This document shows positions 7,092 through 12,342 of a stretch of DNA of 36,921 bases, piece after piece. Numbering within the stretch: position 1 is the first letter of the stretch; every line of letters begins with the position of its first letter. The notes beneath the pieces were generated by a model, which did not search any database, was not told the origin of the DNA, and saw nothing but the letters and a program-made list of their open reading frames with translations. The stretch comes from Sideroxydans sp. (GTDB lineage Bacteria > Pseudomonadota > Gammaproteobacteria > Burkholderiales > Gallionellaceae). The DNA is taken from positions 1 to 36,921 of the forward strand of contig JABFSI010000016.1 in NCBI GenBank assembly GCA_013140695.1, written 5' to 3'. A program made the position numbers and the translations under genes.

Positions 7092-7304
7092 ATGTCTCAA
7101 CCTACATTATTCACGCCTCGTGATTGGACATCGGAGGATGTGTTGCATGCTTTGAAGCGGGCATCCGAGAATGCCCGTCAATTGGCTGAGCAAACCGGCA
7201 CGCCATTCGTTTCTCGTAAGTCTGCGGCTGTTGCAAATACTCTGAGAACAATCGGGGACAGACCACGTTTTCTGAGTGAACATGACATCATCGACCAACA
7301 ATAA
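7092..7304 (+). CDS. Small antitoxin-like protein upstream of the zeta-like kinase
   Basis: 70 residues. The middle carries a helical stretch ending in the motif ARQLAEQTGTPFVSRK (about residues 29-44). The same 16-residue motif recurs in the 52-residue protein on the other side of the kinase gene (7809-7967). Small proteins with an A-x2-A-x4-TGTP motif accompany zeta-type kinases in proteobacteria, so an antitoxin role is inferred. The gene starts three bases after DUF2442 and its end overlaps the start of the kinase gene by about 20 bases, so all are likely one operon. Confidence 0.72.
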   Translation: MSQPTLFTPRDWTSEDVLHALKRASENARQLAEQTGTPFVSRKSAAVANTLRTIGDRPRFLSEHDIIDQQ

Positions 7305-7812
7305 ACGCATTGTCATCATCGCCGGACCAAACGGTGCAGGGAAGACGACCTTCGCGCGGGAGTTCTTGCCGACCGATGCAGAGTTGCCCAACTTTGTGAA
7401 TGCCGATCTAATCGCTGCTGGGTTGTCTCCTTTCGCACCTGATCTGGCCGCGTTCAAGGCGGGGCGGATCATGCTGGAGACGATTGCTGACTATGCGAAG
7501 CGCGGCGAGAGTTTTTCATTGGAGACGACGCTTTCCGGTTTGTCCTATGCACAGATGATTTCATCGTGGCGTGCAGCGGGTTACGTCGTGAATTTGATCT
7601 TTCTGTCTTTGCCAGATGTCGAGATGGCAATCGAACGCGTGGCGATTCGGGTCAGGCAGGGTGGTCACAATATTCCCACCGATGTCATCCGCCGCCGTTA
7701 TGTGCACGGCATTGCTAATTTTGAACGGTATAAACTGCTGGTGGATGGATGGCAGCTATACGACAATTCAGATACACCCGCTGTTTTGATAGAGGAGGGA
7801 CAGAATAAATGA
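7282..7812 (+). CDS. Zeta-toxin-like P-loop kinase
   Basis: 176 residues from the ATG at 7282; a GTG two codons upstream is an alternative. Walker A is GPNGAGKTT (15-23). It is followed by a NADLIAAGLSPF motif and an SLETTLSG motif, which in zeta toxins and related AAA kinases position substrate. Further on are an arginine-rich IRVRQGGHNIP loop and IRRRYVHGIANFERY. Zeta toxins phosphorylate UDP-N-acetylglucosamine and poison cell-wall synthesis; the Gram-negative short forms are less studied, so toxicity here is inferred. It overlaps the upstream small gene and its TGA overlaps the ATG of the downstream small gene, which shares a motif with the upstream one. Confidence 0.85.
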   Translation: MTSSTNNKRIVIIAGPNGAGKTTFAREFLPTDAELPNFVNADLIAAGLSPFAPDLAAFKAGRIMLETIADYAKRGESFSLETTLSGLSYAQMISSWRAAGYVVNLIFLSLPDVEMAIERVAIRVRQGGHNIPTDVIRRRYVHGIANFERYKLLVDGWQLYDNSDTPAVLIEEGQNK

Positions 7813-7967
7813 AATCAGTAGCTGTTTCACACTTGAAAGATCCGGATCTGCAAAAGGTTCCTCAAGCCTTGCTACGCGCTGCTGAAAAAGCCCGCCAACT
7901 GGCTGAGCAGACTGGGACTCCTTTCGTCTCTCGCAAAACTTCTACCACTGGCAAGCAGAGTAAATAA
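7809..7967 (+). CDS. Second small antitoxin-like protein, paralogue of the one at 7092
   Basis: 52 residues. It starts with an ATG overlapping the kinase stop (ATGA), has a variable N-terminus, and carries LLRAAEKARQLAEQTGTPFV followed by SRK at 22-43. ARQLAEQTGTPFVSRK is identical to the stretch in the 70-residue protein at 7092-7304. The C-terminus is short and basic (STTGKQSK). Translational coupling to the kinase and the repeated motif suggest the two small proteins arose by duplication around the toxin gene. Which of them, if either, neutralises the kinase cannot be told from sequence. Confidence 0.75.
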   Translation: MKSVAVSHLKDPDLQKVPQALLRAAEKARQLAEQTGTPFVSRKTSTTGKQSK

Positions 7968-8886: not shown

Positions 8887-9666
8887 ATGCTAAAGAAATT
8901 TTTGTTACCCGCCGCCATGTTGTTCGCCATCGCCCCCTTCGCTGTTGCCGCAGAGCATGCTAACAATTGCAGGCTCAAGGGCGGTTCGATGGTGTTGCTG
9001 GCGGCTGATGCCTGCGTGATGGAAGGTGGCGCGGTGGTGTCTGCGGTGGTTGCGCCTGTGGTTTTTATTCCCGCCATTCAGTTATCTGCCGACCCCAAGT
9101 TGGCTGCCGCGCAACGCACGGTGGCAGAGTTGTTGATGAAGCCGGTGGTGGATAAGAATCTGAAGAAGCGCACACCAGAGGAGATCGAGCGGGCGGTTAA
9201 GTTTGATGGTTGCCGCTTGCTGGTGGATGAGGATATGCAGGTGGAGCACGGCAATGCTTTTGCTGGGCGCAAGCATTTCAAGGTCAGTTCATCGGTGGAT
9301 ATGCAAAAGGTCAGTCGCGCTGCATTCGGCGAGTTGGGCAAGGTGACTTCGTATGGTGGCGGCTTGGAGACGTATGCCATCTACTTCGAAGAGCGCAAGC
9401 TCAAAGAAGGCAACAACATCGCCATCACGATGCTGCTACAGAAGGACGACGGCGCAAGGAAATTCTCTGTGCGCACTTCTGACATCTACTGGGATGCGAC
9501 TAACGATGATTTGTGGATGGCGGATGAATATGGCTACCCGAAAGATGTCGTGGAGAAGGGTGCTGCGCTCGACACCATCCGCCTCTTGTTTTTGATGAAC
9601 ACGCCCGACGATGCCGCTGCACTGAACAAAGCCTTGGGCGATGTGCATGCGCTGTGTAAGCCTTAG
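8887..9666 (+). CDS. Secreted protein of unknown function
   Basis: 259 residues from the ATG at 8887 (GGGAG seven bases upstream). An earlier in-frame start would overlap the phosphatase gene and bury the signal peptide. A Sec-type signal peptide is clear (LLPAAMLFAIAPFAVA, then AE at about 21-23). The mature part has a few Cys residues, an apolar stretch near 50-65 (VVSAVVAPVVFIPA) and a mixed alpha/beta C-terminal half ending HALCKP. I do not recognise a domain. It lies 44 bases upstream of a spike-like needle gene and may belong with it, but that link rests on position only. Confidence 0.7.
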   Translation: MLKKFLLPAAMLFAIAPFAVAAEHANNCRLKGGSMVLLAADACVMEGGAVVSAVVAPVVFIPAIQLSADPKLAAAQRTVAELLMKPVVDKNLKKRTPEEIERAVKFDGCRLLVDEDMQVEHGNAFAGRKHFKVSSSVDMQKVSRAAFGELGKVTSYGGGLETYAIYFEERKLKEGNNIAITMLLQKDDGARKFSVRTSDIYWDATNDDLWMADEYGYPKDVVEKGAALDTIRLLFLMNTPDDAAALNKALGDVHALCKP

Positions 9667-9710
9667 GTTGTACCTCTTCTTTAAATATTTCTTCTGCACC
9701 GGAGCGCATC

Positions 9711-10115
9711 ATGTCTGAAATCATCAAAGAGGTTGTGACTGGCGGCAAGCTGACGTTGGAGTTCGATCAGGACAAAAAGACAATCACGATCACCACGCCC
9801 AATAATCATCAGATCGTGATCTTGGATGAGCAGGATGCTTTGCAGTTGCAAGACCGCTTTGGCAATCTCGTCACCTTGGGGGCGAACGGCATCTTGATGC
9901 AGAGCGTTCAGGATGTTTCTATCTTGGCTGCCGGAAAAGTGAACATCGCAGCTGCGGGGAATATCGCCATCGAGTCGAAAGCGGATTGCACCGTTGATGC
10001 GCTGAATATCACGCAGACAACCAAGATAAGTTTCGTCGCTCGGGCGAATACCGTTACCGAGATATCGGCATCGGGTATGACGTCTATCAAGGGGGCGCTG
10101 GTCAATCTAAATTGA
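9711..10115 (+). CDS. Short beta-helix needle protein, like the C-terminal tip of VgrG/gp5 spikes
   Basis: 134 residues. The sequence is a chain of short beta repeats: KKTITITTPNNHQIVI, then DVSILAAGKVNIAAAGNIAI, ending EISASGMTSIKGALVNLN. This is the pattern of the triangular beta-helix needle and terminal GA(L/M)VxxN strand of T6SS VgrG and phage gp5/gpV spikes. The gp27-like and OB-fold parts of a full VgrG are absent, so it would be a stand-alone needle segment. GGAG precedes the ATG by six bases. It is followed 44 bases later by a PAAR-like DUF4280 protein, the usual sharpening partner of such needles. Confidence 0.72.
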   Translation: MSEIIKEVVTGGKLTLEFDQDKKTITITTPNNHQIVILDEQDALQLQDRFGNLVTLGANGILMQSVQDVSILAAGKVNIAAAGNIAIESKADCTVDALNITQTTKISFVARANTVTEISASGMTSIKGALVNLN

Positions 10116-10159
10116 CCTCGCGGCAGGTTCTTCGGATGATCAAACAAGGGAGGCGCTAA

Positions 10160-10555
10160 ATGGGGAATCTCGTTTGCATGGGGGCGCAATTACAGTGCAC
10201 TTGCGGTGCAGCTCCTAGCTCGCTGATGGTGTTGCCGACGAATCGAGTGATGAGCCGCGGTGTGCCTGTTGCAAACAGTTCCGATCATGCGCCTTTCGTG
10301 AATATCCTCCCCTTTGCCATGTGCTCGAGCCTTGCAAATCCAGCCGTGGTTGCGGCGACTGCGTTTGAGCAGGGTGTGCTGACCCCCATGCCGTGTATTC
10401 CCGTTACGCCTGCACCGTGGACGAATGTGAGTGGTTCCGTGAAGGTCGCCAACCTTTCTACATTGAGTGAGTTTTCAAAGCTGATGTGTCAGCATGGCGG
10501 CGAAATCACCATCGCCTTTGCAGGGCAAGCAAGCGTGAATACGCCGAGCATCTAA
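10160..10555 (+). CDS. DUF4280 PAAR-like protein
   Basis: 131 residues. The DUF4280 pattern is complete: VCMGAQLQCTCGAAPSSL at the start, LPTNRVMSRGVPVAN, DHAPFVNILPFAMCSSLANP, VLTPMPCIPVTPAPW, and the terminal MCQHGGEITIAFAGQ. DUF4280 proteins are PAAR-like; they cap beta-helix spikes of contractile injection systems and carry Cys residues that may bind metal. It lies directly after the needle-like gene. No sheath, tube, baseplate or ATPase gene is in this window, so the pair is either an orphan spike tip serving a system elsewhere or a relic. Confidence 0.85.
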   Translation: MGNLVCMGAQLQCTCGAAPSSLMVLPTNRVMSRGVPVANSSDHAPFVNILPFAMCSSLANPAVVAATAFEQGVLTPMPCIPVTPAPWTNVSGSVKVANLSTLSEFSKLMCQHGGEITIAFAGQASVNTPSI

Positions 10556-10610
10556 AACGATGCGACTGAAGTTGAATTTTTTTAGCGATAAACTGAAAGG
10601 AGAGTAAATC

Positions 10611-11057
10611 ATGTCCACTGGCACTGTTCGTCTTCATCGCGTACTCCGCACCAAACCCGAGCGTATCTACAAAGCCTTCCTGAATGCGGAGGCGATGGCT
10701 AAGTGGCTTCCACCCTACGGTTTCACTTGCACTGTCCACCATCTGGATGCCAAGGTCGGCGGCACATTCAGGATGTCTTTCACCAACTTCACCACTGGCA
10801 ACGGCCACTCTTTCGGTGGCGAATACCTCGAACTCGTGCCCTCGCAAAAGCTCAGCTATTCGGATAAGTTCGAAGACTCAAATCTGCCTGGAACAATGAA
10901 GACGACGGTGACGCTGAATCCGGTGTTATGCGGTACTGAGATATCCATCGTGCAAGAAGGTATCCCCGAGATGATCCCGACCGAGATGTGTTATCTCGGC
11001 TGGCAAGAGTCTCTGGAACAACTGGCGAAACTGGTCGAGCCAGAGATCCCAGATTAA
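10611..11057 (+). CDS. SRPBCC/AHSA1-family protein
   Basis: 148 residues. A START-like beta-grip fold is indicated by VRLHRVLRTKPERIYKAFLN, AMAKWLPPYGFTC, GGTFRMSFTNF and the C-terminal helix CYLGWQESLEQLAKLVE. These are the marks of the AHSA1 (activator of Hsp90 ATPase 1-like) subfamily of SRPBCC ligand-binding proteins. Ligand and role are unknown; family members are often stress or small-molecule responsive. AAAGGAG precedes the ATG by seven bases. Neighbouring genes are on the same strand but unrelated in function. Confidence 0.82.
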   Translation: MSTGTVRLHRVLRTKPERIYKAFLNAEAMAKWLPPYGFTCTVHHLDAKVGGTFRMSFTNFTTGNGHSFGGEYLELVPSQKLSYSDKFEDSNLPGTMKTTVTLNPVLCGTEISIVQEGIPEMIPTEMCYLGWQESLEQLAKLVEPEIPD

Positions 11058-11123
11058 AGCGCAGTGTGTGGAGTAGAATATTTCGCAGCAAGTCCCCGTC
11101 GTTAATAACCAGGAGAGAACATC

Positions 11124-11198
11124 ATGGGAAGTAAAGACAAGAAGAAGGAATCAAAGGGTAAGAAACCACTGCCAAAGCCAGTACCAGCGGGCAAGTGA
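11124..11198 (+). CDS. Lysine-rich 24-residue micro-protein
   Basis: ATG at 11124 with an AGGAGAG ribosome binding site seven bases upstream. The product is MGSKDKKKESKGKKPLPKPV followed by PAGK, i.e. about 42% lysine with a Pro-rich end. The strong ribosome binding site and the hairpin just downstream (11234-11262) argue that it is a translated, separately terminated gene. Function unknown; a nucleic-acid or ribosome contact is possible from charge alone. Confidence 0.6.
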   Translation: MGSKDKKKESKGKKPLPKPVPAGK

Positions 11199-11233
11199 TT
11201 AGGAGTTGAAAGGCATCACATTCGTTTTACACG

Positions 11234-11262
11234 ACATCGCCCGCTTGGGCGATGTTCGTTTC
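11234..11262 (+). terminator. Hairpin after the Lys-rich micro-protein gene
   Basis: Perfect 9-base stem ACATCGCCC / GGGCGATGT with a GCTT loop (11234-11255), followed by TCGTTT. It looks like a weak intrinsic terminator. It lies before the likely rsgA start at 11269. Confidence 0.5.
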
Positions 11263-11268
11263 TGGATC

Positions 11269-12342
11269 ATGAATAGGTTTGATATGGAGCTGACTGAGAT
11301 CGGTTTGGATGGCGACTTTGCGGAACAGGCGAAGCGCTTGTGTGCTTCAGGCCAGCGCGTGGCGCGGGTGACGGCGGTGGATCGCGGTCGCTATGTCGTG
11401 CGCAACGAAAACGGCGAAGTGCCCGCCGAGCTGACAGGCAAGTTCCTTCACACCGCCGCATCCTCCGTGGATATGCCTTGTGTGGGCGATTGGGTGTGTG
11501 CGGAATATCACGATGCCGGTTCGCATGCGAGCATCCATGATGTGGTGCCGCGCAGGTCTTTCTTGCGACGTAAGTCTCCCGGCAAGAACATCGATTTCCA
11601 GATGATCGCGGCGAATATCGACGTGGCGTTCATCGTGCAGTCGTGCCATTTTGATTTCAACGTGCGCAGGCTAGAGCGTTATCTGGTGATGGTGAACGAG
11701 GGGCATATCGAGCCAGTGCTGCTGCTGACCAAGACAGACTTGGTGAGTGCGCAAGAGTTGGAGCACATGCTCGGCAACATCCGCGCGGCGGGCATCACGG
11801 CGCGCATCATCACACTCAGCAGCATGACAGGTGAGGGTGTGGATGAGGTGAAGGCGCTGGTCGTACCGAGTAAGACTTATTGCCTGCTCGGTTCATCGGG
11901 TGTGGGCAAGACGACGCTGATCAATTTGTTGCTCGGCAAGGATGAGCTAGAGACTGGCGTGGTGAGCGGCACGGGCGAGGGCAGGCATACCACCACGCGC
12001 CGCCACCTTGTGACGCTGAACAACGGCGCACTGCTGATCGACATGCCGGGGATGCGCGAGTTGGGTATCTTGAGCACAGGCGACGGGCTGGACGACAGCT
12101 TCGCAGATATCACGGCGCTGGCAGGCCAATGCCGTTTTGCCGATTGCAGTCACAACAACGAGCCGGGTTGTGCGATCCGCAAGGCGATAGAAGATGGCGA
12201 GTTGAATCCCGAGCATTACCAAAGTTACCTCAAGCTCAAAGCGGAATCCGATTTCAACGAGATGTCATACGTGGATAAACGCAAGAAGGACAAAGCGTTC
12301 GGTAAGATGGTGAAGTCGGTTTTGAAGCATAAACACAAGTGA
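11269..12342 (+). CDS. rsgA: Ribosome small-subunit-dependent GTPase RsgA
   Basis: A circularly permuted GTPase that aids late maturation of the 30S subunit. From the ATG at 11269 it has 357 residues. Order of parts: an N-terminal OB domain (RVARVTAVDRGRYVV, then GDWV); the permuted G domain, with TKTD (G4) ahead of GSSGVGKTTLIN (G1), HTTTRRH (G2) and DMPGM (G3); and the C-terminal zinc motif CRFADCSHNNEPGC. An in-frame TTG at 11206 would extend it, but that extension is a hairpin that looks like the terminator of the preceding gene, so 11269 (or ATG 11284) is preferred. It is the longer COG1162 variant. Confidence 0.9.
   Translation: MNRFDMELTEIGLDGDFAEQAKRLCASGQRVARVTAVDRGRYVVRNENGEVPAELTGKFLHTAASSVDMPCVGDWVCAEYHDAGSHASIHDVVPRRSFLRRKSPGKNIDFQMIAANIDVAFIVQSCHFDFNVRRLERYLVMVNEGHIEPVLLLTKTDLVSAQELEHMLGNIRAAGITARIITLSSMTGEGVDEVKALVVPSKTYCLLGSSGVGKTTLINLLLGKDELETGVVSGTGEGRHTTTRRHLVTLNNGALLIDMPGMRELGILSTGDGLDDSFADITALAGQCRFADCSHNNEPGCAIRKAIEDGELNPEHYQSYLKLKAESDFNEMSYVDKRKKDKAFGKMVKSVLKHKHK

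Follow-up and report, generated by a model that had tools for sequence, protein, structure and literature searches.

A stand-alone eCIS-type VgrG needle gene and a DUF4280 cap gene in a Sideroxydans genome with no detected injection machine

Needle and cap proteins form the puncturing tip of contractile injection systems, which raises the question of what such a tip is doing where the rest of the spike is missing. In the window, by which we mean the whole analysed stretch of 36,921 nucleotides of Sideroxydans sp. contig JABFSI010000016.1, two adjacent forward-strand genes pose this question. The first (9711-10115) encodes, from its own ATG, a stand-alone 134-aa needle assigned by sequence matches and predicted fold to the C-terminal beta-helix of an eCIS-type VgrG, and the second (10160-10555) encodes a 131-aa protein of the PAAR-like DUF4280 family (PF14107), a putative spike cap. 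Each is preceded by a Shine-Dalgarno-like motif on the same strand, GGAG at 9701-9704 for the needle gene and GGGAGG at 10148-10153 for the DUF4280 gene, both 6 nt before the ATG. The first-pass annotation had read the two as a needle-only VgrG protein and a PAAR-like cap, and the open reading frames at these coordinates, together with the matches to VgrG needles and to PF14107, bear this out.

The needle protein has no match above cut-off in Pfam, and it aligns with only the last ~130 residues of eCIS VgrG proteins of ~595 aa. Among proteins of known structure, sequence searches matched it to residues 467-597 of the CIS VgrG 9rce_F (1.5e-18), to All3320 of Anabaena (7b5h_AJ, 3.1e-15) and to the AlgoCIS protein 7aef_q (8.8e-7). 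An AlphaFold2 model, which represents the monomer only, reached a mean pLDDT of 91.7, with short repeated strands over residues ~4-64 and none assigned beyond. Searched with Foldseek at E-values up to 0.001, this model returned two matches only, 7b5h_AJ and 7aef_q, both of them CIS spikes, and the same two headed the VIA-align results, with Z-scores of 10.3 and 10.7 at large rmsd values of 7.8 and 12.4 Å, against a background in which unrelated sheet proteins attained a Z of 8.9. The spikes of Francisella, PVC and AFP followed at Z-scores of 6 to 8; because unrelated sheets fill the same range, little weight can be placed on these matches. Compared with a complete eCIS VgrG, therefore, the eCIS-type C-terminal needle is present, and the N-terminal gp27-like hub and OB fold are absent from a protein of only 134 aa.

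The cap protein scores 109.2 bits against PF14107 (cut-off 26.3 bits, E = 2.1e-31) and is encoded by the one DUF4280 gene of the assembly. DUF4280 is described as a PAAR-like family that includes IglG of Francisella (PMC5014421), is classed as PAAR type H in a survey of PAAR proteins (PMC8651086), and is named beside DUF4150 among PAAR-like families (PMC11883445). Four conserved cysteines are given as a criterion for the family (PMC5014421), and C13, C55, C79 and C110 of the window protein are the four cysteines invariant across 15 aligned sequences, which agree with this criterion in number. A phmmer search of the PDB returned no relative of this protein, and its AlphaFold2 model, built from 2 sequences, had a pLDDT of 30.3. 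DUF4280 was also encountered at the C-terminal ~125 residues of a 589-aa frame on a viral contig (L206:2459-4228), tail-fibre-like by reading, and in small genomes of 1.5-1.7 Mb (L110, L111 and L112), as genes beside others that by reading resemble VgrG and T6SS genes.

Whether this cell could fire such a tip depends on the remainder of its genome, an assembly (G000) of 2.50 Mb in 145 contigs, 99.59% complete with 1.42% contamination. Profile searches of this assembly gave no matches to gp25 (PF04965), the sheath (PF04984), VipB (PF05943) or the T4_gp19 tube (PF06841), while in the same searches the positive controls, relative genomes, were matched in 7 of 11 (gp25), 4 of 11 (PF04984), 2 of 5 (VipB) and 2 of 5 (T4_gp19). 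A full-length VgrG query likewise found this needle as its sole match in the genome, with no VgrG body. Thus, neither the sheath, tube and gp25 proteins of an eCIS nor the TssC/VipB and gp25-family TssE proteins of a T6SS were detected, and the genome-wide survey for T6SS and eCIS genes that the first-pass annotation had proposed came back empty where its controls did not. One of these profiles has a known weakness. A genome of another genus in the same family (G281) carries PF06841 and PF04965 matches above cut-off, but its sheath reaches just 24.7 bits against PF04984, under the cut-off, so that a sheath of this type could be missed; the tube and gp25 searches are free of this weakness. The absence of a machine is therefore strongly indicated, although not final, because accessory islands may be missing from an assembly split into 145 contigs. 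A separate observation concerns genome G015, where L051:10554-16215 holds, by reading, an eCIS-like sheath, tubes and a VgrG immediately followed by genes unlike gp25 or baseplate genes, an eCIS that looks split or incomplete.

These results bear directly on the possibility that the pair is a working orphan spike module, riding either on a contractile machine missed by the assembly or on another kind of hub protein, the role suggested for PdpA in Francisella. The first-pass annotation had called a needle without the gp27/OB platform unusual, and so it is, but the arrangement has a published precedent: the Francisella VgrG is described as a needle-only protein of 164 aa, for which the DUF4280 protein IglG is the proposed tip and PdpA the proposed head, carrying the short VgrG (PMC5924787, PMC5014421). 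Since, on this description, the Francisella needle-only VgrG works within a system, the reduced architecture as such is already known. Two genomes of the same genus as the window (G461 and G481) moreover possess the T6SS sheath VipB and gp25, and the Francisella VgrG 6u9e_B is among the structural matches of the needle model, with a Z-score of 7.5 over 88 residues that unrelated folds also reach. However, the Francisella NCBIfam models NF041249 and NF041248 place the needle at 26.3 of 100 bits and the cap at 36.6 of 200 bits, far under their cut-offs, and a 99.6% complete genome yielded no match to gp25, PF04984, VipB, T4_gp19 or a VgrG body, in searches that covered these components. We therefore consider a working orphan module very improbable.

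How the pair came to this position is indicated by nucleotide comparison with relatives. Similarity to one relative (G432) ends at 9667 and restarts at 10595, delimiting a lineage-specific insert of ~927 bp (9668-10594) that carries the pair; similarity to two others (G475 and G489) restarts at 10585. The insert is bordered on the left by a conserved forward-strand gene for a secreted-looking 259-aa protein (8887-9666) and on the right by a conserved forward-strand gene of the AHSA1 family (10611-11057), both outside the pair. Contamination is an unlikely source, since gene order on either side is shared with a genome of the same genus at 90-91% nucleotide identity. The 259-aa protein, which has no Pfam match above cut-off, had been suggested at first pass to be a cargo or relic; this role is rejected, as the gene flanks the insert and is conserved, occurring in 18 of 120 family genomes. 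In what is, by its handles, the same sample of 120, DUF4280 occurs only in the source genome, G281 and G492, so that the 17 other genomes with the 259-aa gene have none; in one of these (G251), a different contig carries VgrG-type matches. The gap at the insertion site holds other small genes or nothing in relatives, with rsgA directly after the 259-aa gene in G475, and tblastn across 11 stretches around the 259-aa gene in relatives (L078-L088) revealed no needle or DUF4280. The degraded full VgrG locus that the first-pass annotation had considered relatives might show is accordingly not seen there. Because relatives have other genes or nothing in this place, the pair is best described as a lineage-specific insertion of ~927 bp at a variable site. 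Its gene content is confined to the needle and DUF4280 genes, with no effector or immunity gene, and a check of its ends for a mobile-element signature found no repeat pair. Elsewhere in the window, the stretch 7092-7936 contains a small gene and a zeta-toxin-like P-loop kinase gene (7276-7812, label by reading), with a diverged partial DNA copy of the small gene (73%) at 7863-7936; in other genomes, too, the 259-aa gene has relatives of the kinase gene nearby.

The likely donor type is suggested by the G281 genome, whose eCIS locus comprises a sheath-like protein, two T4_gp19 tube proteins, VgrG, gp25 and eCIS_core payload genes, with a DUF4280 gene ~30 kb downstream of the VgrG gene on the same strand. 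Its full-length VgrG (595 aa) matches the window needle across residues 458-595 and is the nearest of the 12 needle rows compared (53% identity); its DUF4280 protein is the nearest of 14 (65%, with G316 and G257 at 64%). As the nearest needle and the nearest DUF4280 protein both belong to the G281 eCIS, both halves of the pair lead back to one type of system. The G281 needle as aligned starts at residue 467, past the OB/needle linker, and the window ATG lies 5 residues before the matching point, which puts it in the linker that follows the OB fold. A tree of 92 needles groups the window row with G281 in a four-row clade (SH-aLRT 96), within which its exact sister is poorly supported (46), and gives it an end branch roughly tenfold that of the sister (0.97 versus 0.09). 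In the DUF4280 tree, the window row takes a basal, poorly resolved position and does not group with G281, the nearest rows by path being G316, G257 and G281. The ultimate origin of the window needle in a full-length eCIS-type VgrG is clear.

If the pair is a fragment of an eCIS, the constraint under which it has since evolved becomes the central issue. We applied a home-made, GY94-like codon model (F3x4) on fixed trees of our own choosing to 6 needle taxa over 129 codons and 8 DUF4280 taxa over 118 codons. Fixing omega at 1 on the window branch was worse than a free omega by 12.6 lnL for the needle and 11.2 lnL for DUF4280, and by 11.3 and 9.8 lnL on other topologies; a run with tighter bounds gave the same picture, with 13.5 lnL against omega = 1. 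Under this model, fully neutral evolution of the window branches is rejected for both genes. A window omega free to differ from the background gained 1.0 lnL (needle) and 0.1 lnL (DUF4280), no significant rise, and the omega values themselves mean little because the window branches, where time runs to its bound, show saturation at synonymous sites. In a two-segment model, the neutral part settled at its lower bound, and profiling the length of such a phase produced a drop of ~1.9 lnL only near 0.4 neutral changes per codon for the needle and 0.3 for DUF4280. Simulated frames were still open at 0.4 neutral changes per codon in 27% (needle) and 35% (DUF4280) of cases. Since a short neutral phase stays within ~1.9 lnL, a young relic and a part kept by selection fit these data alike. 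The needle also departs from 20 of 55 conserved columns, the second most of 92 rows, behind a full-length VgrG (L016, 23 of 56) and ahead of the stand-alone viral needle L203 described below (11 of 55). Its long branch and conserved-column changes are as relaxed constraint would give. A promoter search over 9400-11300 found 2 candidates against 1.9 expected, none above chance.

It is plausible, if somewhat doubtful, that the pair is simply a decaying relic, a functionless eCIS fragment that has yet to collect stop codons, an explanation that overlaps with the one we prefer. The divergence of the needle, the compatibility of the data with a short neutral phase in which some simulated frames stay open, the lack of a promoter above chance, the lack of any effector or immunity gene beside the pair in its 927-bp insert and the lack of a detected machine would all follow readily from decay. 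Less readily accommodated are two intact frames with good ribosome-binding sites, a cut that falls at a domain boundary, the retention of cap and needle together, and the rejection of a fully neutral branch for both genes.

The distribution of stand-alone needles provides a further view of whether such a part might be kept. Needle matches occurred in 28 of 399 order, 10 of 369 class and 10 of 398 phylum genomes (overlapping samples), and in these samples all matches other than that of the window, some of them weak, lay in frames of at least 228 aa, compared with an open frame of 151 codons in the window. Genome contigs searched with the single needle sequence yielded no matches. With an alignment as query, the best 80 of at least 330 relatives were examined, and 78 of these 80 lay in frames of at least 400 aa, the two short frames among them (L164 and L166) both being cut by a contig end. 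Plasmid searches returned 4 and 8 records, 8 of them distinct, and the 5 checked were all in frames of at least 579 aa; phage searches matched neither the needle nor DUF4280. The DUF4280 gene itself was found in 28 of 399 order genomes, and among 30 DUF4280 loci, including that of the window, a short closed needle frame adjoins only the window gene, nine others having weaker needle matches whose frames run off the end of the ~3.4-kb locus. The rarity ascribed to the pair at first pass thus holds up, with no other short closed needle in the order, class and phylum samples.

Viral contigs gave two needle matches, one in a 322-aa frame (L204) and one that is stand-alone (L203, IMGVR_UViG_2617271080_000014); further viral scans returned the contig of L203 again or no needle. 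At 7974-8713 of L203, a 133-aa needle is followed 35 bp downstream by a canonical PAAR gene (PF05488, 5.1e-26), both on the strand opposite to their immediate phage neighbours, in a contig with NinG, ParB-like and replication initiation genes, that is, prophage genes. Like the window needle, it begins just after the OB fold, but the two are only 35% identical, and the nearest of the 10 sequences compared with L203 is a Bacteroides eCIS needle (L198, 60%); they therefore look like separate captures. The L203 case is a reason to consider that a hub-less capped needle has a use other than injection, for example as a decoy that disturbs how incoming phages or competing contractile systems assemble their spikes, with L203 as an independent version: the same cut point recurs with a PAAR gene of its own, and on the L203 needle branch omega = 1 is worse by 4.3 lnL. 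Still, there are only two cases, and independent captures could also arise by chance, which leaves such a use unlikely. Quite unlikely, in our estimation, is the broader proposal that selection maintains a recurrent two-gene device, a hub-less needle capped by a PAAR or PAAR-like protein, which would have arisen at least twice, once as this chromosomal insertion and once in the L203 prophage, by cuts of eCIS spikes at the OB/needle linker and would act machine-free, for instance against spike assembly.

Overall, we regard the pair as likely to be a hub-less spike-tip cassette of eCIS origin that this cell has no means of firing. In the scenario we favour, an eCIS fragment consisting of the needle end of a VgrG and a DUF4280 cap would have been inserted between conserved genes of one lineage, after a cut at the OB/needle linker that left each gene with a start of its own. 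By homology with related spikes, three needle chains would form the beta-helix and one DUF4280 protein would cap its tip, and the pair probably folds. With no gp27/OB hub, tube or sheath, the capped needle would not be fireable by this cell. At present it most likely persists as a folded spike tip that plays no part in injection, being either a recent relic or a component retained for some second use; the likelihoods we attach to the cassette, to decay and to a non-injection use overlap, being states of the same object, and do not sum to one. If the pair is kept by selection, the puncturing tip is separable from hub, tube and sheath and reusable elsewhere, and structural studies gain a minimal, naturally occurring needle/DUF4280 pair. 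If it is a relic, it shows how spike tips remain, and a lone needle or PAAR match should not count as an injection system.

Several known systems share features with the pair. It resembles eCIS VgrG proteins such as those of AlgoCIS (7aef_q) and Anabaena (7b5h_AJ) in needle sequence and predicted fold, and G281 in having a DUF4280 protein of the kind found in that eCIS region, but differs in having no gp27-like hub or OB fold, in a genome with no sheath, tube or gp25 matches. With the Francisella T6SS, as described in PMC5924787 and PMC5014421, it shares a needle-only VgrG, a DUF4280 tip and a weak NCBIfam similarity, whereas Francisella has the proposed PdpA head and the window has an eCIS-type needle in a genome with no T6SS sheath match. 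Orphan islands with hcp, vgrG and/or PAAR genes are reported to be common on plasmids and chromosomes, often accompanied by genes for effectors and immunity proteins, and that source takes them to work for a T6SS resident in the same cell (PMC13098142); the window pair is likewise an accessory insertion of spike parts away from a machine, but one with a needle only, no effector and no TssC/VipB match in the genome. PAAR genes linked to neither machine by the criteria of one survey are also common, since that source gives shares of at least 16.3% for eCIS and 20.7% for T6SS (PMC8651086). Among the titles and abstract openings covered, none dealt with a stand-alone eCIS needle and DUF4280, a scope that falls short of proving absence; what seems new is the combination of an eCIS-type needle-only gene with DUF4280 in a genome with no detected machine, together with a parallel prophage case. 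That parallel is close in its two-gene layout and cut point, and differs in that L203 carries a canonical PAAR protein (PF05488) instead of DUF4280 and has a different closest eCIS relative.
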